A DNA stretch of 46,590 nt from Shinella pollutisoli. Its GTDB lineage: Bacteria > Pseudomonadota > Alphaproteobacteria > Rhizobiales > Rhizobiaceae. The stretch lies in assembly GCF_024609765.1 (NCBI RefSeq), contig NZ_JANFDG010000036.1, positions 1-46,590 of the forward strand, read 5' to 3'. Below, in pieces: positions 1-20,404 of this stretch (position 1 is the first letter of the stretch; each line of letters opens with the position of its first letter). Made by a program: the position numbers and the translations under genes. Under the pieces are notes generated by a model. The model was given only the letters and a program-made list of their open reading frames with translations, had not been told where the DNA came from and did no database searches.

Positions 1-478
1 GTAGTGGCATTTTTCGGGATGCCCAATCGAGCTTGGTCAATGTGCGAGGAAAACACCGCTTACATTTGGCAGGGACAGGACCGTTCCTCACTGGACAGCG
101 CTGTATCTGAAAGAGCAGCATCGGGTCTCGGCGACCCAGCAGTCGAGGGGTAGGCAACCCTTCGTACGTACTACACTCTGAAACGCTGAGATTCTTATTA
201 GCAGAACCGAAGGCGGACGATCTTCTTCCGACTTCCTTTTGTAGCCACTAGCCAATAAAGTATTTTGCAGTCAGGTGGAATCACCTGACGCTGCACAAAC
301 GCGGCAAAAACAAACAGATAGAGCGGTGGCGTGAATGCGCGTGAGTGCATCCCGCTCTAACAGCGGAAACGATTCCCCCTACGCGCCTTCATGTCGGTCG
401 TTCGAGCCGCATTACACCTGCCCGATTGCGAACATTGACAATTCACCTCACTTAACGGCATCGACCAGAACTGGCCGA
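1..478. other. Left-edge stretch without a supported gene
   Basis: No convincing coding region is visible. Short open frames run in from the left edge (one stays open to about 153, another to about 181), but neither shows a recognisable motif, so a truncated gene end cannot be excluded. The only clear structure is a hairpin at 267-294, described separately. The stretch lies downstream of the minus-strand SIR2-HerA-KTSC operon. Confidence 0.4.
267..294. other. Strong hairpin / inverted repeat downstream of the SIR2-HerA-KTSC operon
   Basis: TCAGGTG (271-277) and CACCTGA (282-288) form a perfect stem around the loop GAAT. GCAG (267-270) and CTGC (291-294) extend the stem past a two-base bulge. 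On the minus strand it lies about 185 bases after the KTSC stop. There is no clear U-run on either side, so it is not a standard rho-independent terminator. It could end the operon transcript, stabilise its 3' end, or bind a protein. Confidence 0.45.
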
Positions 479-691
479 TCAGATCGGGTTGCACGGATAA
501 GCGTTCCTGATCTCAGCATTGAAGAACTGCCCAATAGAGGAGGCGTCCAATAGTCGATCGTACATGAACTGGGGGACGTTGTAGTATTCATAGACCTTTC
601 CGGTGGCAACGAACTCAACCTCAAGAATCTCCGAACCAGGATCATAGCCAACCGAAGCCAAACTCGACGAATTTACTGACTGTCGTTCCAT
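479..691 (-). CDS. KTSC domain protein, third gene of a SIR2-HerA operon
   Basis: A 70-residue protein that is almost entirely one KTSC domain, a small fold named after the C-terminal domain of some lysyl-tRNA synthetases and of unknown function. Visible family signatures are the opening SVNSSSLASVGYD, the central LEVEFVATGKVYEYYNVP and the closing FNAEIRNAYPC. The start at 691 is supported by an AAGGAGG ribosome-binding site located inside the last codons of the upstream herA gene. The herA stop ends at 692, so the genes abut with no gap and are probably translationally coupled. No signal peptide or membrane segment is seen, so it should be cytoplasmic. Its placement suggests a role in, or control of, the SIR2-HerA defence complex, which is inference. 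It could also be a passenger gene. Confidence 0.8.
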   Translation of the reverse strand: MERQSVNSSSLASVGYDPGSEILEVEFVATGKVYEYYNVPQFMYDRLLDASSIGQFFNAEIRNAYPCNPI

Positions 692-2476
692 TCATTCCTC
701 CTTCCATCTTGGGTTTTGGGATCGCCACGCAGCCGTAACGTTCACGTAATTCTCGTTACTGCGTTCCTTACTCCAGTTTTGGGCAACGTGCGGATCCTCG
801 CTGGTGGGGCGCTTGCCTTCCTCGGGAAGTGTAATCCTGCACCGCACAGGCAGCTTGGCAGCCTCGCCGGTGATCACAGCCTCGCCCGTACGAAGTACAG
901 GCAAGCTATCCACGATTCCGCTCAGACTGTCAGGTAGGGCCGCCTGAACCTTGCTGCGATCCGACGAGTTGGAGAGGCGGAGCGAAAAGAAAGTCCCGCA
1001 CTGGGAGAGAATGGTTTCGTCGATCTCGGATGGGCGCTGGCTCACGATCATTGCGCCGAGGCCGAACTTGCGGCCCTCTTTTACGATGCGCTGAACGGCA
1101 TCTCGTGCAAGGTTGGCATCGTCCCGACCCAGATACCGATGTGCCTCCTCCATAACCACAAGCAGAGGGCGCGCCCGCCCGCCTTCGGGCATCTCGCGGC
1201 TCCAGAAGAGGGCCTCGTAAATGATGTTTAGGATGCCTCCAATGAGTCGCATTAGGATCGAACTCGGCACGCCCGACAGATCTAACACCGTAATCGGTCG
1301 ATCGTGTCCAAGCCAGCTCTCGAGCAGTTGCGGCAGGTCGCTCTGCGTAACCCCATCGAGGCTCGGTTCCCAAGGTCCAGGATGGAGCATGAAGTCATAC
1401 TGTCGATCCAGTAGTCGTGACCGGAGCTGTTCGAGCTGTCGCCGGATCGACAGCACGTTCGTCTTGTTTGCGAACGGCGACGTATTACCTTGGCCAGGCA
1501 GTGGATAAGTAGGCGCCGTTAGTGTTTCAGCATCGCCCGGAGCGGTCTGAGCCGAATTCTGCTGAGTGTTCTCCACCCACGTCTTGATTTCCGGGTCGAT
1601 CAGATGGAGCCAAAGCGATTTCAGGCTGAACGGCAGAGGGCTGCCGGCGGTCAGCGAGTTAGCATCGACACCGGGATAGTTCATCTGAGCTAAGACTGCA
1701 GTTTTCTCTCTGAGAATGCGGTCCTGAATCGCCGTTAGCGCCTTCTCCTCGGTCTTCCCGAGAAGGAACGTCAACAGGTCGTCCAGATCGAGTGCCCAAT
1801 AAGGAACGTAAAGGCGCTCCTCATTCTCGAGTGGGTTCACGCGAAAGACTTTGGCGACCTCACCAAGCGCGCGGCCGTACTCACCATGGATGTCCATCAG
1901 GAGCACCCGTGCATTTGGAAAGCTGGAGTGGTCACCCTGACCAACCGAAAGGGAACGCAGCAGGCTTGTGACCGTCGTCGACTTGCCAGCGCCCGTCGAT
2001 CCCAACACCGCAGAGTGGCGCGTCACGAGCTTGTCCAGATCGATACGGACGGGGATGCTTTCGGCTCCCGACAGTCTACCGATGGTCACCTGACCCGTGT
2101 CAGCGGTCCCGTAGATGCGGGCGAGATCCTCCTCGACGACGAGATGCACCTGGTCGTTAATCGCGGGATATTGGCTAATCCCGCGTTCGAAGGTCGCTTC
2201 TAAAACCTCGCCGACGAGTTGCACCTTGATCCAGCGGTCCCCTCTCGCCCCGCTGTCGACCAGTGTCTCAGGCGTGGCAGTAGCACCGACGTCGGAGATG
2301 ATACCGTACAGGTCGTGATAGCCCTGCGGGATGCGGACGAAGCTGCCGACCTGGCCAATGCGGTAACTGCGACCGCCAATGATAGCAATACCCGAGGCGG
2401 TTCCTTCGAACTGTCGCACGTTGATCGTCGCGCCCGCGACAGCTCCGACGTGACCGAGAAGGGTTGGTGCGCTCAT
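692..2476 (-). CDS. herA: HerA-family ATPase/translocase of a SIR2-HerA defence system
   Basis: A 594-residue HerA/FtsK-superfamily ATPase. An N-terminal HAS-barrel-like region occupies roughly residues 1-140. The Walker A motif GSTGAGKST is at 159-167, LLMDIHGEYG follows, and Walker B is LLVVMEEAHRYL, with SQRPSEID after it as is usual in HerA. An open frame extends 73 codons further upstream, but that stretch lies inside the SIR2 gene. The start chosen here (2476) overlaps the SIR2 stop as TAATG, a classic coupling arrangement. In characterised SIR2-HerA (Nezha) systems HerA forms a hexamer that assembles with SIR2 subunits, and the complex depletes NAD+ and may degrade nucleic acid on phage infection. 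The order SIR2 then HerA matches those systems. No damage to key motifs is seen. Confidence 0.88.
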   Translation of the reverse strand: MSAPTLLGHVGAVAGATINVRQFEGTASGIAIIGGRSYRIGQVGSFVRIPQGYHDLYGIISDVGATATPETLVDSGARGDRWIKVQLVGEVLEATFERGISQYPAINDQVHLVVEEDLARIYGTADTGQVTIGRLSGAESIPVRIDLDKLVTRHSAVLGSTGAGKSTTVTSLLRSLSVGQGDHSSFPNARVLLMDIHGEYGRALGEVAKVFRVNPLENEERLYVPYWALDLDDLLTFLLGKTEEKALTAIQDRILREKTAVLAQMNYPGVDANSLTAGSPLPFSLKSLWLHLIDPEIKTWVENTQQNSAQTAPGDAETLTAPTYPLPGQGNTSPFANKTNVLSIRRQLEQLRSRLLDRQYDFMLHPGPWEPSLDGVTQSDLPQLLESWLGHDRPITVLDLSGVPSSILMRLIGGILNIIYEALFWSREMPEGGRARPLLVVMEEAHRYLGRDDANLARDAVQRIVKEGRKFGLGAMIVSQRPSEIDETILSQCGTFFSLRLSNSSDRSKVQAALPDSLSGIVDSLPVLRTGEAVITGEAAKLPVRCRITLPEEGKRPTSEDPHVAQNWSKERSNENYVNVTAAWRSQNPRWKEE

Positions 2477-3696
2477 TACGCCACCGTGGAGGCGGATGCG
2501 GCCGCCGCGGCCGCCGCAGCGGATGCGCAAGGTGTCACGAAGACCTGCGTTGAACGCGACGCGGAGAAGAACCGAGCGAATGCCTCTATTGCCCCGAGCG
2601 TAAACTCGTGCTGGCCGCCTCCTTGGGGTTCCGACCAGTACGAGGACCGGATTGGTCCCCAGTCCTTTGAAGGAAGCTCCGAAGGCACACGCCAAGAACC
2701 CTCCGAACCATTCACCAGCGCGGCGTCACGTGCGTAGACGCTGAAGTTAGGTAGTCGGCGACCGAGCTCTCTAGCGCAAATCTCGTCACCGAGCTTCTGG
2801 AACTGGAACGCGAACACGCTAGCGGATGGGTTCGCCGCGAGTCCCTCATCGATACGCGCTGAGATATGAGCGTCAGCGAACGAAAACCCGATCGAGATCA
2901 GTAGCGTGTCCGGCGTAGCGAGGAAGGCGCGCAACCTGTCGAGGAGTGCTGCGTAAGGAGCCTTTTGAGTCTGTTCGTACTTGAGGTGCTCGGGGAATAC
3001 GAGGTGCCGGGCGTTATCCTTGCCGGAACGGATCACCTCGTCTTTGACGTTAGAACACCACCCCAGCGATCCGTGCAGCTTCCAGAGGCGTGTCCACCTT
3101 GCCGGTAGGTCGTTGTTGGAGACAGTGACAGGGTCGAAGAATGGCTCACGGCCACCCGTAAAGCCGTCGAAGTACGGCGCCCGCACGCGCTCAAGAGCTT
3201 CCTCAAGCAGCAGATCGTAGTTCGTCGTGAAAATCTCTATGGGATGATCACGACCGGCACCCGTGATCCAGGTTACGATGTCGCTGTAGGCCGAGCCGCT
3301 CTCGGGCAAAGTTACGGCGACGACCTTCCCGATCTCCTCGCATACGCGCTCGCCAAACTTCGCATATCCGGGTCCGTCCAAGTCATGGATCTTGGCCGGC
3401 CCTATTACCTTCGCGAGCGACCTAATCCTGGATAGGAGCGTCTCGATGTCATCCTTGGGCGCGAGTTCCTTCTTCAGCTCTGCGATCTGCTTCCCATATT
3501 CTGTCTCGAGTATATCGAGGACAAGTTTGGTCAAACCGGCGACCGCCGGGATCAGGGGGTAGGTGCCGTCTGCCTTCTTCATTCCTGCCGATGCGCCGGC
3601 GCCAAGCAGTAACCCGATCCTCTTTCGGCCCCCGGCTATAATCGTACGGAGGGCAGTCATGTATTGATCAGGATTGTGTACGATCTCGCTCGGCAT
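2476..3696 (-). CDS. SIR2-domain NADase, effector of a SIR2-HerA anti-phage system
   Basis: A 406-residue SIR2-like protein. The nucleotide-binding loop GAGASAG is at 32-38, TTNYD at 157-161, KLHGS with the candidate catalytic His at 206-210, and SIGFSFAD at 268-275. These are the hallmarks of bacterial defence SIR2 domains, which hydrolyse NAD+ rather than deacetylate proteins. The C-terminus ends in an unusual run of alanines after residue 391. An upstream GTG (3786) would add 30 residues, but 3696 is preceded by GGGGA at proper spacing while 3786 has no ribosome-binding site; 3696 is therefore preferred, with moderate certainty. The stop overlaps the herA start by one base. Its likely role is abortive infection by NAD+ depletion when HerA senses invading DNA, by analogy with characterised systems. 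Confidence 0.85.
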   Translation of the reverse strand: MPSEIVHNPDQYMTALRTIIAGGRKRIGLLLGAGASAGMKKADGTYPLIPAVAGLTKLVLDILETEYGKQIAELKKELAPKDDIETLLSRIRSLAKVIGPAKIHDLDGPGYAKFGERVCEEIGKVVAVTLPESGSAYSDIVTWITGAGRDHPIEIFTTNYDLLLEEALERVRAPYFDGFTGGREPFFDPVTVSNNDLPARWTRLWKLHGSLGWCSNVKDEVIRSGKDNARHLVFPEHLKYEQTQKAPYAALLDRLRAFLATPDTLLISIGFSFADAHISARIDEGLAANPSASVFAFQFQKLGDEICARELGRRLPNFSVYARDAALVNGSEGSWRVPSELPSKDWGPIRSSYWSEPQGGGQHEFTLGAIEAFARFFSASRSTQVFVTPCASAAAAAAAASASTVA

Positions 3697-4257
3697 AGTT
3701 TCCCCAATGATGGCTATGGCACCTTCTTGATCTAAACGATAAATTGATTCTCGCCTAAATTGCACCATGCCATGCTGAGTCAACACAATTTACGTAGATT
3801 GAGGCTAACCAGCACTTTCGGATACGTAGACGCGGAGAGAGGCAACTCGCGCGAAGGCAAGCGCTCCGAGTGATTGGAACGTCCGCTCACACAATAAGGC
3901 CCTAGAAGCAGCCGGTCCGAAAGCGGCCTCGAGGCAGTCATTACAGCAGGGACCTTGCACGCTAAATGACTCCAATATTAGAGGAGAGCCTGGTCCGGGG
4001 GGCTGGTTCCTACGGTAGGCTACGAAGCCATATTGATAGCGAGCCTTGCCTATCAAACTCTTGCCCTCTCCTAGTATACGGCACGTTACAATTTTGCATC
4101 TATCGAGCAGGGATCGGTTGTGTTCCCAAGGGGCACTTTCAGGCAAGCTGAATTATAAACTTGACTTTTTGTCTCGACATTTGCATCGGATATCGAATGA
4201 GCGATCCAGGTTGGACGATGGCCTAGCGCCGGAGCCCCAAAGCCCGTGGTGCCGGCA
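3697..4257. other. Divergent intergenic region between the defence operon and fecI
   Basis: About 560 bases without a supported gene. Short frames on both strands (for example near 3805-4146) have no ribosome-binding site or recognisable content. The region must hold the promoter for the minus-strand SIR2 operon and for the plus-strand sigma-factor gene. TTGACT on the minus strand (3784-3779) could be a -35 element, but its -10 is poor. A T-tract motif at 4166-4178 is repeated upstream of the TonB receptor and is listed separately. Confidence 0.5.
4166..4178 (+). promoter_or_regulatory. Candidate ECF-sigma promoter element upstream of the fecI-like gene
   Basis: TTTTTGTCTCGAC here matches 11 of 13 bases with TTTTTGCCTCTAC at 5906-5918. 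Each copy lies about 80-110 bases before a start codon of the same FecI/FecR/receptor system. A shared T-rich -35-like element would allow the sigma factor to act on both its own gene and the receptor gene. The downstream -10 regions do not align at equal spacing, so the call is tentative. Confidence 0.25.
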
Positions 4258-4746
4258 ATGTCGAGCAGATCAGAAGAAATCGAAGCCTTATACAACTCGG
4301 AAAGACTGCGCCTTGAGCGTATGGTTGTCGGCAAGGTGGGTGCCAGCAACGCCGCAGATGTTGTGCAGGATGTGTTTGCGGCAGTATGGTCGAGAGCGAA
4401 AGAGCATGTGAAGCTCTCCCCTTCCTATCTCTCACAGGCAGCTAAATTCACGGCGATCAGTCGTTTTCGCTCGGAACGCCGGCGGGTGGTATTCTTTGCC
4501 GGCATAACCGAAGAACAGTATTCGGCTCCAGTCGCCATGCCGGATCAGATCGTTTCCGCCCGCGAGGATCTAAAGCGATTGGAGGAGACGGTGATAGCCT
4601 TGCCTACACGGACACGGCAAATATTTCTCCTCAATCGAATGCATGGTTGCACCTATGAGGAGATCGCCGCTGGCCTCGATATCTCCTACAGTACCGTTGA
4701 GCGGGAAATGGCCAAGGCAATCATGGCCTGCAAGGGCGCAAGATAG
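4258..4746 (+). CDS. fecI: FecI-like ECF sigma factor
   Basis: A 162-residue extracytoplasmic-function sigma factor of the iron-siderophore (FecI) class. Region 2 shows AADVVQDVFAAVWSR, and region 4 near the C-terminus contains YEEIAAGLDISYSTVEREMAKAI, a helix-turn-helix for the -35 element. ATG at 4258 is used; GTG at 4246 would add four residues and has GGAG eleven bases upstream, so either is possible. The next genes are a FecR-type regulator and a TonB receptor with an N-terminal signalling domain, the standard cell-surface signalling trio. The sigma factor is expected to be released by FecR when the ferric siderophore binds the receptor and then to transcribe the receptor operon. Confidence 0.85.
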   Translation: MSSRSEEIEALYNSERLRLERMVVGKVGASNAADVVQDVFAAVWSRAKEHVKLSPSYLSQAAKFTAISRFRSERRRVVFFAGITEEQYSAPVAMPDQIVSAREDLKRLEETVIALPTRTRQIFLLNRMHGCTYEEIAAGLDISYSTVEREMAKAIMACKGAR

Positions 4747-4854
4747 TCTCCAACGGCTTCTGAAGGTAAATCCTGGATTCAGGCGATATCTTTTATGAAG
4801 CGGCAAGGCGATGCTTTTGCCGATCACCAATCATTGCTGGAAGTGAAAGAGTCC

Positions 4855-5856
4855 ATGGACAACGATGAGGCTGCTGAACCCCGCGACAAGGCGCTTATCG
4901 AGAAGGAAGCCGTCGCATGGTTCACGCGGATGAACGGTAAGCCGACGAAAGCTGAAAGGCGTGATTTCGCAAACTGGATGTCCATGTCGCCGGATCATGC
5001 GCAGGCGTATAACGAGGTCGGTTCGCTGTGGAGCGATCTTGGTGCGGTCGCGGACAAGGTTTCGGACAAGACAGGGGACGACCTGACGGAGCCACTCAAA
5101 AAAATCACCCATTTTCGTCGGGAAAAGAGGAGGGCCAAAACCGGGCCAATCATTGCAAGCTGTCTCGCCGTTCTTGTCGCCGGAACCTGGATCTGGCTGG
5201 AGCATCCCCATTTTCTACAGAATATGGGCGCGGATTTCAGCACCGCGAAGGCCGAAAGACGCAGTGTGACCCTTGCCGACGGCTCCACGGTACTGATGGA
5301 TGCAGATAGCGCGATCGATGCCGACCTCTCAGCCGACGTACGGCGGGTTCGTCTTCTGCGGGGAGGCGCATATTTCACGGTCAGCCCATCCGGCATTCCG
5401 TTTATCGTCGAAGCGGAAAATGGCGAGGCGCGAGTACTCGGCACCCAATTTGACGTGGTTCTGGCGGAGAACAGCAATGTCACCGTGACCTTGTCCCGCG
5501 GCAGTCTGGAGGTTTCTTCCGCCAGTGATGGGAAAAAGGTCGTTTTGAAGCCGGGAGAAAGTGTCGAATACAATAAGGCCGGTCTAAGCGCGGTGAAGAC
5601 CGTGGACATTGCAGAAAGCATGGCCTGGCATGACGGGCGGTTGATATTCAACAATGCCCGCCTTGCCGATATTCTGGCACAGATCGGGCGCTATCGGGAC
5701 GGCAGGATCGTCCTGCTCGGAACGGCAGTGGGAGAAAAGCGCGTCAGCGGCAACATTTCTCTCGAAAATACGGAAACCGCACTTGCGGCGATGAAGTCCT
5801 CCATCGGCTTTCGCATGACCAAGCTCGGGGGAAAGGTGGTGTTGATCGGGCCATGA
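4855..5856 (+). CDS. fecR: FecR-family anti-sigma/sigma regulator
   Basis: About 333 residues. The N-terminal cytoplasmic part (with EKEAVAWFTRMNGKPTKAERRDFANWM) is the DUF4880/anti-sigma region. One membrane-spanning segment lies at about residues 98-115, and the periplasmic FecR domain follows with RSVTLADGSTVLMDADS and RVLGTQFDV. The C-terminus has the secretin/TonB-like short domain that contacts the receptor's signalling domain. ATG at 4795 would add 20 residues but lacks a ribosome-binding site; 4855 follows GAAAGAG and is preferred. It sits 108 bases after fecI. It is expected to transmit the ligand-bound signal from the outer-membrane receptor to FecI. Confidence 0.85.
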   Translation: MDNDEAAEPRDKALIEKEAVAWFTRMNGKPTKAERRDFANWMSMSPDHAQAYNEVGSLWSDLGAVADKVSDKTGDDLTEPLKKITHFRREKRRAKTGPIIASCLAVLVAGTWIWLEHPHFLQNMGADFSTAKAERRSVTLADGSTVLMDADSAIDADLSADVRRVRLLRGGAYFTVSPSGIPFIVEAENGEARVLGTQFDVVLAENSNVTVTLSRGSLEVSSASDGKKVVLKPGESVEYNKAGLSAVKTVDIAESMAWHDGRLIFNNARLADILAQIGRYRDGRIVLLGTAVGEKRVSGNISLENTETALAAMKSSIGFRMTKLGGKVVLIGP

Positions 5857-5905
5857 CGGGTACTTCCGTGCCCATTCCGAAAATATTTTAGAGGTCGCGG
5901 CAATT

Positions 5906-5918
5906 TTTTTGCCTCTAC
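5906..5918 (+). promoter_or_regulatory. Candidate FecI-dependent promoter element for the receptor operon
   Basis: TTTTTGCCTCTAC lies in the 172-base gap between fecR and the TonB receptor gene and is nearly identical to 4166-4178 upstream of fecI. A T-tract followed by a GC-rich stretch (CCTGAGGGTACGACC) resembles promoters used by iron-responsive ECF sigma factors in other bacteria. GGCAA and TTGCC (5899-5903, 5909-5913) also make a small hairpin here. This is inference from position and similarity only. Confidence 0.3.
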
Positions 5919-6028
5919 CCTGAGGGTACGACCACCTCTCCGGCGATATCGAATATGAGAGGTCAGGGAAGAACGTATTCAAAGCACGACCCGCTCTCGT
6001 TGTTTCGATTTGTGGAGAAGGGTGGCGC

Positions 6029-8518
6029 ATGATGGGCAAGGCAAAGAGCAGCAGAATGATTGTTCTGTTGGCGACGACCATATTGACGGCGGTCGGCGGA
6101 AACGGGGTTGCCCATCGGGTGGCATTCGCACAGACCGCACAGGTCTATCGGTTCAACATCCCCGCCAAGCCCATTCGTCAGGCGATGAACGATATCGTCA
6201 GTGTCAGCGGTATCGATGTTGTCTTTTCCGAGACATCTGCTGCCTCTGCCGTTGGCAAGCCGGTCAGCGGAACACTGACCCCGTCGCAAGCAGTCGCCGC
6301 CTTGCTGTCAGGAACGGGTCTTTCCTACAGGTTCACCAGCAGCAATACCGTCACCATATTCGATGCAAGGCGTATTAGTGCTGACGGTGGCGTTGCTGAC
6401 GATGGCTCAACGATGCTCCAAGAGATTGTTATCCAGGGCCAAGGCAATCCCAACTCCACAATCGGAAATCTGCCGGAAGAATATGCCGGCGGTCAGGTGG
6501 CCACGGGTGGGCAGGTTGGAATGCTCGGCAATCGGGATACGATGAACACGCCGTTCAGCCAAACGAGCTATACAAACAGAAAGATTCAAGACCAGCAGGC
6601 GCAGACCGTTCAGGACGTGCTCTCCAACGATCCGTCCATACTAACCAATACCCAAACAGCAGGGAACAACGACGAAATAACTACGATCCGCGGCTTCATC
6701 GACACCGGGGTAAACGGCTCAAAGAGCCTGAACGGCTTGGTTGGCATGGCGCCTCTGCATTCGCCGGATACGGACTATCTTGAGCGGGTCGAGGTGCTCA
6801 GGGGGCCGGGCGCTTTGCTGAACGGTATGTCTGCGTCAGGTTTGGGAGGCATCGGAGGTTCCGTCAATCTTTTCACCAAACAGGCCAGCGACGAGCCACT
6901 AACACAGATCACCACACGCTACGATTCCCGCTCGCAGATCGGCGCACATATCGATGTCGGTCGCCGCTTCGGTGCGGAGAAGCAGTTCGGCGTTCGCTTC
7001 AATGGCGCATTCCGCAAGGGCGATACTCCCCTGGATACACAGTCGACGGAGATCGGATCGGCCGCGCTCAATCTGGACTACCGTGGCGAGCGCGTACGGA
7101 TAAGCGCAGACTTCGTGCATCAATCCAACGAGGCTAGTCCGGCAAACTCGCAACTGATCAACATTGCTCGTGTTGCGGGCCTTGGCGTCGTACCAAGGGC
7201 TCCGGATGGAGACACCAACTTCATGCCGCCTTGGAGTGAGCACAAGGTCAAAACCACATTGGGCATGATCCGGGGCGAAGTCGACATCACCGAAAATGTA
7301 ACCGCCTATGCGGCGATCGGAATGCAAAGAAACGACTACTACCTCTTTTCGCCGAACGTCCCGCAGCTACTCGATATGGATGGTCAGTACAGCCAGTCGG
7401 GCCACACGCAAGCTGAGTATATCCGAGACGTGTTGTCTATGCAGGGCGGAGTGAGGGCCACGTTCAATACGGGCCTGGTCGATCATGCTCTGAGCCTCAA
7501 CGTGTCGCAGGCTGGGATGGAGTGGAAACGTGCGTTGTTCACGGCGCCCTATGCTTGCACCACGAGCATTTACGATCCTGTTTTCTGCCCGGCTCCGGCC
7601 TTCCGTGACCTGGGTGAAACGGTGAGGTCCAGCAAAACAAGGATGTCCAGCATCGCCATCGCCGACACTATGTCGATGTTTGACGATCGGCTGCAATTTA
7701 CAGCAGGACTCCGCTACCAGGATGTAAAATCCGATGTTTTCAATAGGATCACTGGTGAGCTAACCACCAGCTATGAAAACGATGCTTGGACGCCAGCCTT
7801 CGGGCTGGTCGTCAAACCTTGGGAGAATGCTTCACTCTACGCCAACTATATGCAGGACTTGCAGGTTGGTGAGGTTGTTCAACCTCCATATGTCAACGCC
7901 GGGGAGGTGTTTCCGCCGTTTGTCAGCGAGCAGTATGAGGCGGGCGTTAAGGTCGACTGGGGCAACGTCATAACGACGCTCTCAGCATTCCAAATCACGC
8001 GGGCCAACTACTATGGTTATGTTGACGCATCTGGAGCGCTGGTTAGAGCCCTTGACGGTGAGCAACGGAACCGCGGCATCGAACTGAATGCCTACGGCGA
8101 GATTTCGCCGGGCGTACGTCTCCTTGGCGGTCTGACCCTTCTCGATGCTCGCCAGACAAGAACTGCTAATGGCACCAATGACGGAAAAAGAGCAAATGGC
8201 GCACCAGCCTTCCGCGCGGTCGTTGGTGCAGAATGGGACACTCCATTCATGGAAGGACTCACGCTGACCGGCCGTGTCACCTACACCGGCGAGCAGGTTG
8301 TCAATAACGACAACGAGAATCTGAAAATTCCGGATTGGGCGATCGTCGATATTGGCGCACGCTACACGTTCAATTCCCCTTGGAACGACCAGCCGATCAC
8401 TGTCCGCGCCAGCATAGATAACGTGTTCGACAAGAATTACTGGTCGACAGCACAATCCAACAGCCTCTATCTCGGTGCGCCACGGACATTCCGGCTGTCG
8501 ACGACATTCAAGTTCTGA
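6029..8518 (+). CDS. TonB-dependent ferric-siderophore receptor with N-terminal signalling domain
   Basis: An 829-residue outer-membrane receptor of the FhuA/FpvA-like siderophore family. It has a signal peptide ending near AFAQ (about residue 35) and an STN signalling domain at about 40-112 (YRFNIPAKPIRQAMNDIVSVSG). The plug domain follows (for example TVQDVLSNDPSI, TIRGF, VEVLRGPGALLNG), then the barrel, which ends in a terminal phenylalanine (STTFKF) as usual for outer-membrane assembly. The start has a GGAG/AAGGGTGG ribosome-binding site. The STN domain shows that it both imports and signals to the upstream FecR/FecI pair. The stop overlaps the start of the next gene (TGATG), so the ABC transporter is co-translated. 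The exact ligand is unknown. Confidence 0.9.
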   Translation: MMGKAKSSRMIVLLATTILTAVGGNGVAHRVAFAQTAQVYRFNIPAKPIRQAMNDIVSVSGIDVVFSETSAASAVGKPVSGTLTPSQAVAALLSGTGLSYRFTSSNTVTIFDARRISADGGVADDGSTMLQEIVIQGQGNPNSTIGNLPEEYAGGQVATGGQVGMLGNRDTMNTPFSQTSYTNRKIQDQQAQTVQDVLSNDPSILTNTQTAGNNDEITTIRGFIDTGVNGSKSLNGLVGMAPLHSPDTDYLERVEVLRGPGALLNGMSASGLGGIGGSVNLFTKQASDEPLTQITTRYDSRSQIGAHIDVGRRFGAEKQFGVRFNGAFRKGDTPLDTQSTEIGSAALNLDYRGERVRISADFVHQSNEASPANSQLINIARVAGLGVVPRAPDGDTNFMPPWSEHKVKTTLGMIRGEVDITENVTAYAAIGMQRNDYYLFSPNVPQLLDMDGQYSQSGHTQAEYIRDVLSMQGGVRATFNTGLVDHALSLNVSQAGMEWKRALFTAPYACTTSIYDPVFCPAPAFRDLGETVRSSKTRMSSIAIADTMSMFDDRLQFTAGLRYQDVKSDVFNRITGELTTSYENDAWTPAFGLVVKPWENASLYANYMQDLQVGEVVQPPYVNAGEVFPPFVSEQYEAGVKVDWGNVITTLSAFQITRANYYGYVDASGALVRALDGEQRNRGIELNAYGEISPGVRLLGGLTLLDARQTRTANGTNDGKRANGAPAFRAVVGAEWDTPFMEGLTLTGRVTYTGEQVVNNDNENLKIPDWAIVDIGARYTFNSPWNDQPITVRASIDNVFDKNYWSTAQSNSLYLGAPRTFRLSTTFKF

Positions 8519-10329
8519 TGCGGGGAGAGATTGCGAAGCGCTGGCCGCATATGAGCGGCCAGCATACGAAGGATATTTTTCGCGTCACCGATGTGGCCAT
8601 GGCCGGCTGGCGTATCGGTGCGCTCTATTTTCGGTCGGGAGAACGCTTAACCGCGTGCTGGCTGTTGGCCGGTGTGATCGGGTCGAATTTGGCCGGGGTC
8701 GGATTGACCGTGGTTTCAAGCTACTGGAATGCCGCTTTCTTCAATGCGCTTGGCGTTAAAGACTGGAACGCCTTCATTTTTCAGGGTGTGGTCATATTTG
8801 GCGTAATTACGTTTGCGTTTCTCGCCCACTCAGTTGTCCAACTGACCATCACCAAGTGGCTCGTGATTCAATGGCGACAATGGTTGACGGCACGTTATCT
8901 CGATAGGTGGCTATCGACTGGCGCACTCTACCCGATGCAATTCGAATTGGATGCACCAGACAACCCCGACCAACGTATCGCTGACGATGTGCGTCTTTTC
9001 ATTGAATACACATTAGAGTTGTCCATGGGTCTGTTGACCGCGTTACTTTCGCTAGCGTCCTTCACCTATATCTTAGCGACAATCCCAAGCGGCGCGCACT
9101 ACGAAATGCTGGGCCTGACGGTGCCTTTGCCGGCTCTGCTGGTCGGAGCCGCCTTTCTCTATGCCATCATTTATACATGGGCCGCCCATCTGATTGGGCG
9201 CCCGTTGGTCAGCCTTGGCGCTGACCAGCAGAGGGCGGAGGCGAACTTTCGTTTCAGCCTCGCACGCCTGCGCGAAAACGCTGAGGAAGTTGTGCTCGGA
9301 GGCGGCGCAGCGACAGCCGAGCGGGCTGATCTCGACCGGCGTTTTGAGCGTGTGATCGGAAACTGGTATGCACTCTTAGCGCGCGAACGCCTGCTTACGT
9401 TCGTACAAGAAATCTTTAATCGTGGTGGAGGCGTGCTTCCGCATCTCCTGGTCGCTCCGGTCTATTTCGCTGGCGGCATCCAACTGGGCGGCTTGACACA
9501 GGCTGCCGGAGCTTTCGGCCGCGTCCGAACTGATGTTTCCTTTCTCGCCCGCAGCTACACGAAGCTCGCCTATCTTGGGTCGGTGATTGGACGGCTACAC
9601 GGTTTCGAGACTGCGTTGGAATCAGTCTATGATGAAGTTGGCCGTGTCCAGCATGCAAAGCATGCGGATGTTGACATGATGCTAGACGCCCGCAACGTCA
9701 CGCTGCGACTACCGACTGGCCAAGTGATTGCCAATTTCCCTGCATTTCGTCTCGATCGTGGCGAGCGGGTGCTTCTGACCGGAGCTTCTGGGCTCGGCAA
9801 GACCACGTTCGTCCGTGCACTTGCGGGAATCTGGCCTTTCGCCGAAAGCACCATAAGCCTTCGAGAAGGCGCGAGCCTCATGGTCGTGCCACAGCGGAGC
9901 TACCTTCCTCTTGGTACATTCCGTGAAGCGCTGACCTGGCCCGATGTATCCGGTTTGATATCTGACGCAAGCATCCGTGAGGCGCTCACGGCGGTTGGAC
10001 TGTCGGCACTGTCCAATCGGCTTGACGAGGAAATCGAGGAAGCCAACGGATTCTCCGGCGGCGAGCGCCAGCGCATTGCCTTCGCGCGGGCCTTGATACA
10101 GCGACCGGATATTCTGTTGCTAGACGAATCCACCTCCGCTCTCGACGAACCATCAGAGCGCGAAATTTACCGCTTGATTGCGGAACGCCTGCCGCAAACG
10201 GCGGTGCTTACCGTTGGGCATCGCGCTTCCCTCGCGGCACTTCACACGCGGACGCTTGAACTTATCCCGTCCGAAAGCGGGGCCTTCCTGGCCGACCTGC
10301 ACGCTGATGAAAAGGAAACAGCAAGATGA
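8518..10329 (+). CDS. Exporter-fold ABC transporter (YddA/SbmA-related), probable siderophore permease
   Basis: A 603-residue fused permease-ATPase. The membrane half (about 40-340) belongs to the ABC_membrane_2/SbmA-BacA-related type, seen in DNPDQRIADDVR at 148-159. The ATPase half has Walker A GASGLGKTT (422-430), Q-loop PQRSYLP (458-464), signature FSGGERQ (512-518), Walker B ILLLDE (532-537) and the switch His at 568. The start overlaps the receptor stop by one base, and its own stop overlaps the next gene as ATGA. This family has an exporter fold, yet members such as mycobacterial Rv1819c take up hydrophilic compounds. No periplasmic binding protein or FecCD-type permease is encoded nearby, so this protein is the likely inner-membrane step for the siderophore. 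Export of a siderophore or peptide remains an alternative. Confidence 0.85.
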   Translation: MRGEIAKRWPHMSGQHTKDIFRVTDVAMAGWRIGALYFRSGERLTACWLLAGVIGSNLAGVGLTVVSSYWNAAFFNALGVKDWNAFIFQGVVIFGVITFAFLAHSVVQLTITKWLVIQWRQWLTARYLDRWLSTGALYPMQFELDAPDNPDQRIADDVRLFIEYTLELSMGLLTALLSLASFTYILATIPSGAHYEMLGLTVPLPALLVGAAFLYAIIYTWAAHLIGRPLVSLGADQQRAEANFRFSLARLRENAEEVVLGGGAATAERADLDRRFERVIGNWYALLARERLLTFVQEIFNRGGGVLPHLLVAPVYFAGGIQLGGLTQAAGAFGRVRTDVSFLARSYTKLAYLGSVIGRLHGFETALESVYDEVGRVQHAKHADVDMMLDARNVTLRLPTGQVIANFPAFRLDRGERVLLTGASGLGKTTFVRALAGIWPFAESTISLREGASLMVVPQRSYLPLGTFREALTWPDVSGLISDASIREALTAVGLSALSNRLDEEIEEANGFSGGERQRIAFARALIQRPDILLLDESTSALDEPSEREIYRLIAERLPQTAVLTVGHRASLAALHTRTLELIPSESGAFLADLHADEKETAR

Positions 10330-11432
10330 ACTTCAGGGCTCATGCCACCGCTCATTTTCCCTGCGCGGAAGCCGCGCGTGACGCCATCTTTGAGGATTTC
10401 ACAAAGCGCTTCGCGGAGGTAGAAGATGGGGCTACGGTTTCTCGCGACGGCGCAGCGGTGTCGCTAGCGGTTCCGGAAGGTGATCGATCGTTTCGCGCCA
10501 TATTCACGGCCACCGGCGACGATTTCGGTCTGGACGCAACGGCGAAAAATCTGGACCGGCTTATCGGTATTAAATCCTTCATGGCATCGCAGCTCCTGAA
10601 ATACGCGGAGCCGCACAGCCCTTCCATCATCTGGCAGGGAGACGCCAGCGAATTGACTACCCATCCGGGTTTCCGGCTCATGCGGGTGGTATCGACGCGC
10701 AACGTCACGCCGCATATGAAGCGGTTAACCTTAATCGGGGAAGACCTTGACCGTTTCGCCACCCTGGACGGATTGCATGTAGGGCTCGTGATCCCTCGGA
10801 AGCAGGACACAGCTGCTCTATCCCTGTCCATTACCTTGAGTCCGGACGGCAGGTTGATTCTGCCGCAAGGAGATGATGCTCCAGATACGCGGACCTATAC
10901 GATCCGCTCGGTCGATACCGCGGCCGGAACGTTGGACATCGACTTTGTCGTTCACGACGACGCGGGACCGGGATCGGCCTTCGCGGAACGGGCGAAACCA
11001 GGCGACGTCGTCGGTCTTCTCGGCCCCGCCGGCGCAGCAGCGCCGTTGGACCGCGACTGGTATCTGCTGGCTGGGGATGAGACGGCAATCCCGGCGATAG
11101 CGCGCATCCTCGAAGCCCTGCCCGAGCGCGCGCGTGGCGTCGCCTTCATCGAAGTTGCAGACGCTGCCGAGGAGCAGCCGATCGCAACCAGATCGGGCAT
11201 CGAAGTCCGCTGGCTACATCGCAATGGCGCGTGCCCCGGTGCGACCAACCTGCTGGTCGATGCCGTGCGCGGAACGCACTTCCCAGCCGAAGGCGCTTCT
11301 TTGTTCGCTTGGGCTGCGTGCGAAATCGACGCCTTCAAGGAAATGCGTGCATATCTGCGCAAGGAACGCGGTCTGAAAAAGGGAGAGAGCCTCGTCGCCT
11401 GCTATTGGCGCAAGGGCGTAGCGGAAGCATGA
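10326..11432 (+). CDS. Siderophore-interacting FAD reductase with N-terminal DUF2218 domain
   Basis: A 368-residue protein. Residues 1 to about 95 look like DUF2218, often fused to or found with siderophore-interacting proteins. The SIP/FAD-binding 9 part follows: RTYTIRS (189-195) is the flavin-binding motif, LLAGDETAIPAI (247-258) begins the NAD(P)H-binding half, and the C-terminal WAACE...MRAYLRKERG is the SIP signature. Such proteins reduce Fe(III)-siderophores in the cytosol to free iron. The ATG overlaps the stop of the ABC gene by four bases, indicating tight coupling of import and reduction. The layout recalls mycobacterial IrtAB, where a SIP-like reductase domain is fused to an exporter-fold ABC importer. 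No missing motif is seen. Confidence 0.9.
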   Translation: MNFRAHATAHFPCAEAARDAIFEDFTKRFAEVEDGATVSRDGAAVSLAVPEGDRSFRAIFTATGDDFGLDATAKNLDRLIGIKSFMASQLLKYAEPHSPSIIWQGDASELTTHPGFRLMRVVSTRNVTPHMKRLTLIGEDLDRFATLDGLHVGLVIPRKQDTAALSLSITLSPDGRLILPQGDDAPDTRTYTIRSVDTAAGTLDIDFVVHDDAGPGSAFAERAKPGDVVGLLGPAGAAAPLDRDWYLLAGDETAIPAIARILEALPERARGVAFIEVADAAEEQPIATRSGIEVRWLHRNGACPGATNLLVDAVRGTHFPAEGASLFAWAACEIDAFKEMRAYLRKERGLKKGESLVACYWRKGVAEA

Positions 11433-18897: not shown

Positions 18898-20157
18898 CTA
18901 TCGCCGCTTCGTTCTTCGCTTGTCTTCAAGAGGGATGTTTTTTGCGCCCTCCCGAAGCTGATCGAGATAGTCCGCCCACCATTGCATCATTGCAACGCGC
19001 TCATCCCAATATTGTCCGCGCGCATATGCACGGCGAACGGCGCTTCCCTCCATGTGCGCGAGCTGGCGCTCGATAGCATCGACCGACCATTTGCCGCTTT
19101 CGTTTGCAAGGGTGGCAAATGCGGCGCGGAAACCATGGCTGGTCATCTGGTCCTGGCCGAAGCCCAGCCGACGCAGGGCAAGCGTTGTGGTGTTCTCCGA
19201 AATCGGGATTTTGGATGACGTGGTGGATGGGAAAATGAGCGAGGATTCGCCCCGATCTGTCAGCGGGTGCAATTCCTTGAGAATCGCGATCGCCTGATCT
19301 GGCAGGGGTGTAGCGTGTATCCGCCGCATTTTCATGCGCCCTGACGGAACGGTCCATGTCCTCTTCTCAAAATCGATCTCGTCCCACCGTGCCGCCCGGA
19401 CTTCGCCGGGCCGAAGGGCAAGAAGCGCCATAAGCTTCAGCGCGGCGATCGTGGTCGGCTGGCCGCTTTCCCACGAATAGATAGCGCGCATCAGTGTGCC
19501 GAGCGGTTCCGGCTTCACGATTGCGGCACGATGTTGAACATTAGGGGCCGTCAGCGCTCCTCTGAGATCAGCCGTCGCATCCCGTTCCGCCCAGCCGTTG
19601 GCGACGGCAAACCGCAGGACGCGGCCAATCGTCGAGCGCATGCGTCGGGCGGTTTCATGGTTGCCCTTGGCTTCGACAGGGCGAAGCACCGCCAAAACAT
19701 CCTTCGGTGCGATCTCGTGCACCGGCTTGTCCGCCAAGCCCTTCGCAAGGTCGATCAGCAGCCAGCGGGCCTTGCTCATCGTGATGGCCGCTCGCCCTTC
19801 CTTCTCCGCCTTGGTGAGATATTTTTCTGCGACAGCGGCAAAGGTGTTCTCCGCAGCCTCTTTGGCAGCCTTTACGGCGACCTTGCGCTCTTTCTTTTCC
19901 TCGCCCGGATCGATGCCGGCCTCAAGCAGCCCTTTCGCCCTGCGGCGTGCTTCCCGCGCGTCGGCAAGCAGCGTTGCCGGATATGAACCGAGAGCGAGCT
20001 GCTTCTGGCGACCTCCGAAACGATAAGCCAGCCGCCACAGCCGACTGCCGTTCGGATTTACGAGCAGGAACAGGCCGCCGCCGTCCGTCAGCTTGAATTG
20101 CTTGTCGCGCGGCTTGATGGATCGGATCGCCGTATCGCTGAGTCTGTCCGTCGTCAT
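18898..20157 (-). CDS. P4-type tyrosine-recombinase integrase (DUF4102 family)
   Basis: A 419-residue site-specific integrase. The N-terminal DUF4102 domain is typical of island integrases (LTDGGGLFLLVNPNGSRLWRL, ALGSYPATLLADARE). A core-binding region spans about 105-200, and the catalytic domain contains ALRPGEVRAARW (Arg), SHGFRAAFATLANE (His-Arg), LAHMEG and a tyrosine in YARGQYWDER. It appears intact. It is transcribed away from the tRNA-Leu, whose 3' end lies 163 bases upstream of the start, as usual for tRNA-integrating islands. It should catalyse integration and excision of the element occupying the left part of the window. Confidence 0.92.
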   Translation of the reverse strand: MTTDRLSDTAIRSIKPRDKQFKLTDGGGLFLLVNPNGSRLWRLAYRFGGRQKQLALGSYPATLLADAREARRRAKGLLEAGIDPGEEKKERKVAVKAAKEAAENTFAAVAEKYLTKAEKEGRAAITMSKARWLLIDLAKGLADKPVHEIAPKDVLAVLRPVEAKGNHETARRMRSTIGRVLRFAVANGWAERDATADLRGALTAPNVQHRAAIVKPEPLGTLMRAIYSWESGQPTTIAALKLMALLALRPGEVRAARWDEIDFEKRTWTVPSGRMKMRRIHATPLPDQAIAILKELHPLTDRGESSLIFPSTTSSKIPISENTTTLALRRLGFGQDQMTSHGFRAAFATLANESGKWSVDAIERQLAHMEGSAVRRAYARGQYWDERVAMMQWWADYLDQLREGAKNIPLEDKRRTKRR

Positions 20158-20319: not shown

Positions 20320-20404
20320 TGGTGCCCAGAAGAGGACTCGAACCTCCACGCCTCGCGGCACAGGTACCTGAAACCTGCGCGTCTACCAATTCCGCCATCT
20401 GGGC
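20320..20404 (-). tRNA. tRNA-Leu (anticodon CAG), integration site
   Basis: An 85-base leucine tRNA with encoded CCA. The acceptor stem GCCCAGA/TCTGGGC closes properly. The D-arm is GGCGGAATTGGTAGACGC. The anticodon stem-loop is CAGGT-TTCAGGT-ACCTG with CAG in the loop. A short variable arm follows, and the T-arm is GAGG-TTCGAGT-CCTC. The 3' end faces the integrase gene, so the island has integrated at the tRNA 3' end and left the gene whole. The duplicated 3' end expected at the far island border was not found in the window. Confidence 0.95.

Follow-up and report, generated by a model that had tools for sequence, protein, structure and literature searches.

Shinella pollutisoli carries, at the left end of contig NZ_JANFDG010000036.1, a three-gene operon that encodes a SIR2-family protein, a HerA ATPase and a small stand-alone KTSC protein (Table 1). 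We analysed it within a 46,590-nucleotide stretch of this contig (the window). The genes are tightly packed. The sir2 stop overlaps the herA ATG in TAATG, the herA stop TGA abuts the ktsc ATG with zero gap, and a Shine-Dalgarno (SD) sequence, AGGAGG, lies within the final herA codons. A sequence-only reading of this DNA had described a three-gene SIR2-HerA-KTSC operon, and its coordinates, TAATG coupling, protein motifs and ktsc ribosome-binding site inside herA are all confirmed. Its view of the operon as a defence-type unit with KTSC as the third component is supported. A scan of window positions 1-4300 found no sigma-70-like promoter and one terminator-like site, which lies within herA on the opposite strand.

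Table 1. Coordinates of the operon and of associated features in the window.
Feature	Position	Strand	Description
sir2	2476..3696	minus	putative SIR2-family NADase-like effector, 406 amino acids
herA	692..2476	minus	HerA/FtsK-type ATPase, 594 amino acids
ktsc	479..691	minus	stand-alone KTSC protein, 70 amino acids
shared DNA block	418..3917	none	87-90% identical, from blastn against seven relatives (L065, L066, L098, L235, L240-L242)
tyrosine integrase	18898..20157	minus	Arm-DNA-bind_3, Phage_int_M and Phage_integrase domains; beside the tRNA-Leu 3' end; probable island boundary
tRNA-Leu (CAG)	20320..20404	minus	probable island attachment site

The sir2 product retains the motifs GAGAS, TTNYD (N159) and KLHGS (H208), and both N159 and H208 are unchanged across a six-sequence SIR2 alignment. 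By motif only, they are equated with N168/H227, given as the active-site pair of Vibrio cholerae SIR2 (PMC11559045). The protein matches Pfam SIR2_2 (E-value 7e-17) and PADLOC SIR2 PDLC04094 (2e-191), and the herA product matches DUF87 (1.4e-34) and PADLOC HerA PDLC04105 (3.5e-162). With a SIR2 effector that has the conserved catalytic Asn/His, as assigned by motif, and an adjoining, overlapping HerA ATPase gene, the pair belongs to the SIR2-HerA (Nezha-like) systems. The curated cut-offs of the NCBIfam equivalogs NF042942 (SIR2_antiphage, 61.8 of 500 bits) and NF042944 (HerA_antiphage_2, 246.5 of 850 bits) are not reached; by these scores the two proteins are related to the named equivalogs but not members of them. 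The ktsc product scores 80.2 bits against PF13619 (gathering cut-off 25), and its AlphaFold2 model adopts the KTSC fold with a predicted local distance difference test (pLDDT) score of 95.9. The ktsc product matches no model in PADLOC-DB 2.0.0 or NCBIfam at an E-value of 0.1, and ktsc is the sole KTSC gene found in a search of the 79 contigs of the Shinella pollutisoli genome.

KTSC is a near-constant companion of this clade of SIR2-HerA systems. An alignment built from six SIR2 sequences was used to scan one genome per species (GTDB), and the best 80 of at least 509 confirmed loci were then profiled with SIR2, HerA and KTSC. KTSC is present in 74 of these 80, as a separate gene directly after herA in 62, where it starts between -14 and +29 nucleotides relative to the herA stop, and fused to the HerA C-terminus in 12. 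A downstream KTSC at homologous loci, which the sequence-only reading had proposed to search for, is thus the usual arrangement in the clade. The six loci counted as lacking it are all broken or cut by a contig end: herA is cut at or near the contig end in L068, L078 and L143, L142 holds a sir2 remnant without HerA, herA is broken in L097, and a contig end interrupts the KTSC start in L112. Counted as carriers are L126, which shares its genome with L142 and has KTSC shortened to 57 amino acids, and L088, L090 and L093, with broken genes and KTSC present. By record title, carriers come from alpha-, beta- and gammaproteobacteria, Solidesulfovibrio, Labilithrix, Pelagicoccus and an Opitutales genome. 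Because only 69 KTSC places occur in 398 genomes of the phylum (51 of which have one or more), yet the domain recurs at nearly every related locus, its link to herA goes far beyond chance.

Plasmids and viral contigs also carry the association. The nine best SIR2 matches and the nine best KTSC matches among plasmids fall on the same nine records. A fused HerA, used as the query, matched 33 plasmid records at an E-value of 1e-60 or better, and KTSC lies beside HerA, by annotation or position, in all 30 that were examined (all but H127, H128 and H130). Matches that stop before KTSC were considered as KTSC-less kin of the carriers, which is ruled out for the six inspected, all of which have KTSC and mildly strengthen its link to herA. 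On viral contigs, KTSC accompanies 10 of 12 SIR2 matches; one of the others runs off the contig end and the other is a distant SIR2 without HerA. Carrier plasmids include one conjugative Escherichia coli plasmid, the sole match by megablast similarity among 5426 complete E. coli genomes, and plasmids of Aeromonas, Citrobacter, Enterobacter and Klebsiella at 38-41% identity. A haloarchaeal plasmid of Natrinema zhouii carries the operon at 35% identity, and the module therefore extends into Archaea. On this plasmid (L253, 2791-5977), sir2-herA-ktsc is followed by pieces annotated as ADP-ribosylglycohydrolase.

Genes adjoining ktsc are mostly variable. The recurrent one is a family of 343-347 amino acids (58-76% identical) that lies directly 3' of ktsc in four of the loci examined (L017, 4706-5743; L051; L117; L238) and constitutes an optional fourth gene. 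The L017 copy has no match in Pfam. On plasmid pB of Agrobacterium pusense (L235, 4301-14983), an insert of roughly 9 kilobases, with phosphonate genes and an IS481 transposase, interrupts herA.

The window also shares a block of DNA with seven relatives (Table 1). Its ends vary among them (window 390-460 and 3791-3931) and flank the operon closely. The relatives represent about three kinds of surroundings, with flanks partly common within L066/L098/L235 and within L240-L242. No terminal repeats of note occur at the block ends. It looks as if sir2-herA-ktsc moved as one unit.

The wider family of SIR2-HerA systems presents another picture. Among 24 other loci from relatives and class members, chosen regardless of KTSC (14 of the 21 class genomes with a match, the window's own aside, were examined), KTSC is present in five (L015, L016, L017, L051, L052). 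Genome G017, from the genus of the window, holds two SIR2-HerA systems, L015 with KTSC and L018 without. KTSC is not a general SIR2-HerA component, and the solved HerA chain of E. coli (8j4u) gave no KTSC match. The sequence-only reading had named the absence of KTSC from nearly all other SIR2-HerA loci as evidence against itself; this absence is largely the case system-wide and strongly reversed within the clade.

A quick HerA tree was built from 119 HerA cores, with 14 fused proteins among the 120 homologues included. L016 (same genome as L079), L068, L078, L142, L143, L088, L090, L093 and L235 were left out, and L097 and L112 are uncounted in it. A single branch (support 97) separates the 19 KTSC-less loci from the carriers. 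Among carriers, the tree requires at least ten changes between fused and separate states, six of which are forced by starred branches. Since the deepest carriers (L239, L052, L236, L238, L017, L051) all have a separate gene, fusion to HerA is probably the derived state. Such repeated fusion is a Rosetta-stone signal and therefore marks HerA as the partner of KTSC.

The closest solved relatives of the window proteins (SIR2, E-value 1.6e-73; HerA 8wiv_A, 4.5e-175) already contain the domain. The HerA chains of PDB entries 8wiv, 8wld and 8wof end in a KTSC domain (residues 628-696) that is ordered in the complex. We take 8wld, 8woc, 8wod and 8wof, together with entries that share their HerA (8wiv, 8wj3, 8wk0) or SIR2 (8w9l, 8w9x, 8yqf), to be those of Liao et al. 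2024 in Nucleic Acids Research, from Paenibacillus. All three domains of the 8wld SIR2/HerA complex have homologs in the window; KTSC is fused to HerA in the former and encoded by a separate coupled gene in the latter. Because fused and split loci intermingle on the HerA tree, the split KTSC marks a variant and not another system. The suggestion that a coupled KTSC gene was an undescribed SIR2-HerA component is weakened by these structures and by the HerA-KTSC pairs in Krishnan et al. 2022 (PMC9503650). In that work, an unpublished observation has HerA-KTSC coupling with an endoDNase that replaces the sirtuin. Like the window, such variants couple HerA with a KTSC gene; unlike it, they use a nuclease. 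None was found when 64 of the 69 KTSC places in the 398 genomes were examined, where HerA lies nearby in eight and SIR2 is present in all eight. These 64 comprise 60 fetched stretches and four already among our loci, and a distant HerA could escape in some that are short or at a contig end (L205, L215, L227).

More distant systems supply the functional comparison. The Nezha/SIR2-HerA of E. coli (8j4u, 8sub, 8uae) and the Nezha of V. cholerae combine, like the window, a SIR2 effector with a HerA ATPase and have the same motifs, although the E. coli proteins are distant from ours (HerA, E-value 1.3e-30; SIR2, 2.1e-12). In V. cholerae (PMC11559045) and other Nezha systems, the SIR2 ring assembles with HerA, which its NADase needs. 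By analogy, depletion of nicotinamide adenine dinucleotide (NAD+) as in Nezha (PMC11559045) is expected for the window system. DUF4297-HerA (8xau, 8ziq, 9c1m) resembles the system proposed here in that a HerA hexamer activates an effector, and adjoining HerA subunits are clamped by a C-terminal hook (PMC11291478). Unlike the window system, its effector is a nuclease, and its hook is a HerA tail and not a KTSC domain.

KTSC is most likely not a passenger but a working part of the SIR2-HerA machine. That it is a physical subunit of HerA is, in our view, highly probable from these sequence comparisons. We propose that the window operon is a SIR2-HerA (Nezha-like) abortive-infection system and that HerA of the 8wld clade works with a C-terminal KTSC module, which may be delivered in cis by fusion or in trans by a third coupled gene. 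The short linker in fusions places KTSC near the HerA C-terminus, and it would dock there on every HerA subunit, with adjacent subunits clamped to one another. This clamp role, proposed by comparison with the DUF4297-HerA hook, is one that we favour with some reserve. Clamping would favour a HerA hexamer that can engage the SIR2 ring and switch it on, and the activated SIR2 would destroy NAD+, so that the infected cell is stopped. Taken whole, a Nezha-like, NAD+-depleting operon of the 8wld clade, whose HerA uses a C-terminal KTSC that is here separate and whose activity would protect against phages, is a moderately likely account of the locus.

Several observations weigh against this account. 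KTSC is missing from 19 of the 24 loci in the wider sample, and the domain is not HerA-specific, as it occurs without HerA in most KTSC-bearing genomes. The tree produced long-branch warnings, both among the 19 KTSC-less loci and for carriers L239 and L052, so its deep order is unsure and the single origin of the carriers, while likely, is not secure. An AlphaFold model of the fused L094 HerA was considered as a source for the docking site and dropped, since confidence is low at about residues 501-570 and 600-620, which join the core to KTSC. The alignment of this model to the solved chains ended near residue 549 and thus lends docking no support.

In the main rival account, KTSC would sit on the C-terminal face of the HerA channel and act as a gate or a nucleic-acid sensor that contacts phage DNA or RNA and licenses SIR2. 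The HerA of related systems translocates DNA, and the fusion to HerA fits a sensor equally well. KTSC has moreover been termed both an RNA-binding (PMC7824862) and a DNA-binding domain (PMC9503650). We consider this role possible but unlikely. A small third gene that ends the operon directly after herA could also encode an antitoxin-like inhibitor that holds the SIR2 NADase off until infection. The ten or more split/fused changes (the six forced ones included), with HerA as the fused partner in all 12 fused loci, argue against it, and the KTSC-less majority of the wider sample needs no such inhibitor; this role appears improbable. Among the inhibitor, activator and sensor functions that the sequence-only reading had offered, repeated HerA fusion speaks for a subunit with a structural or activating role rather than for the inhibitor. 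KTSC genes that stand elsewhere without HerA would agree with a passenger that has no role in the system, an explanation made very improbable by the 74 clade loci, the repeated fusion and the shared DNA blocks that hold all three genes.

An extension of the clamp proposal, which we regard as doubtful, is that KTSC acts as a dosage-controlled assembly factor needed as a free protein even where it is fused. Fused herA-KTSC genes would then yield both HerA-KTSC and free KTSC, which would jointly fill the six HerA positions. Of 108 clusters of fused proteins, 106 retain Met at KTSC position 1, as do all 13 fused loci examined. In 11 of the 13, this Met is preceded by an SD duplex at least as strong as -6 kcal/mol, compared with 7.4% (10 of 135) of other Met codons; L094 and L095 have no SD. 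Synonymous shuffles equal that strength in 8.5-48% of draws (11 loci), and several loci are close kin. We treat an internal start in fused genes as a lead and not as a finding: the retained Met may have a structural role and the SD may be a relic, and the amino-acid sequence partly explains the SD.

Under this extension, KTSC could be a clamp that various conflict machines reuse, a notion hinted at by haloarchaea in which it follows a ThiF/E2 pair. On Halorubrum plasmid pCBA1229 (L237, 4001-4213), a 4-nucleotide overlap joins the KTSC gene to an E1-like gene of the ThiF family, and an E2/UBC gene lies upstream. ThiF lies beside KTSC in three haloarchaeal plasmids in total, and E2/UBC is upstream in the one inspected. 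KTSC is possibly the third gene of another conflict operon at the Halorubrum locus. Short KTSC-like stretches occur in 26 phage records, for example Caulobacter phage Seuss and Providencia phage PSTNGR2lys. These proteins could be decoys against a KTSC-dependent HerA.

With KTSC as a component, a two-gene defence system becomes two- or three-part, depending on the clade. Two-gene definitions would suggest cloning sir2 and herA only, as KTSC matches no PADLOC-DB model, and from this clade such a pair may give a dead or misbehaving system. Deletion of ktsc in split operons offers a clean probe of the C-terminal HerA module, which is harder to obtain in fused proteins.

The operon is part of a probable integrated island that spans window positions 1-20320 and ends at tRNA-Leu, where the integrase gene lies (Table 1). 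GC content is 0.590 on 1-20320 against 0.704 on 20321-46590. The window, which starts at a contig end on its left, was searched for a second attachment site and holds no further sequence identical to the 3' end of the tRNA. The island also encodes an iron uptake cluster (4246-11432) with an ECF sigma factor, FecR, a TonB-dependent receptor, an ABC transporter and a siderophore-interacting protein.
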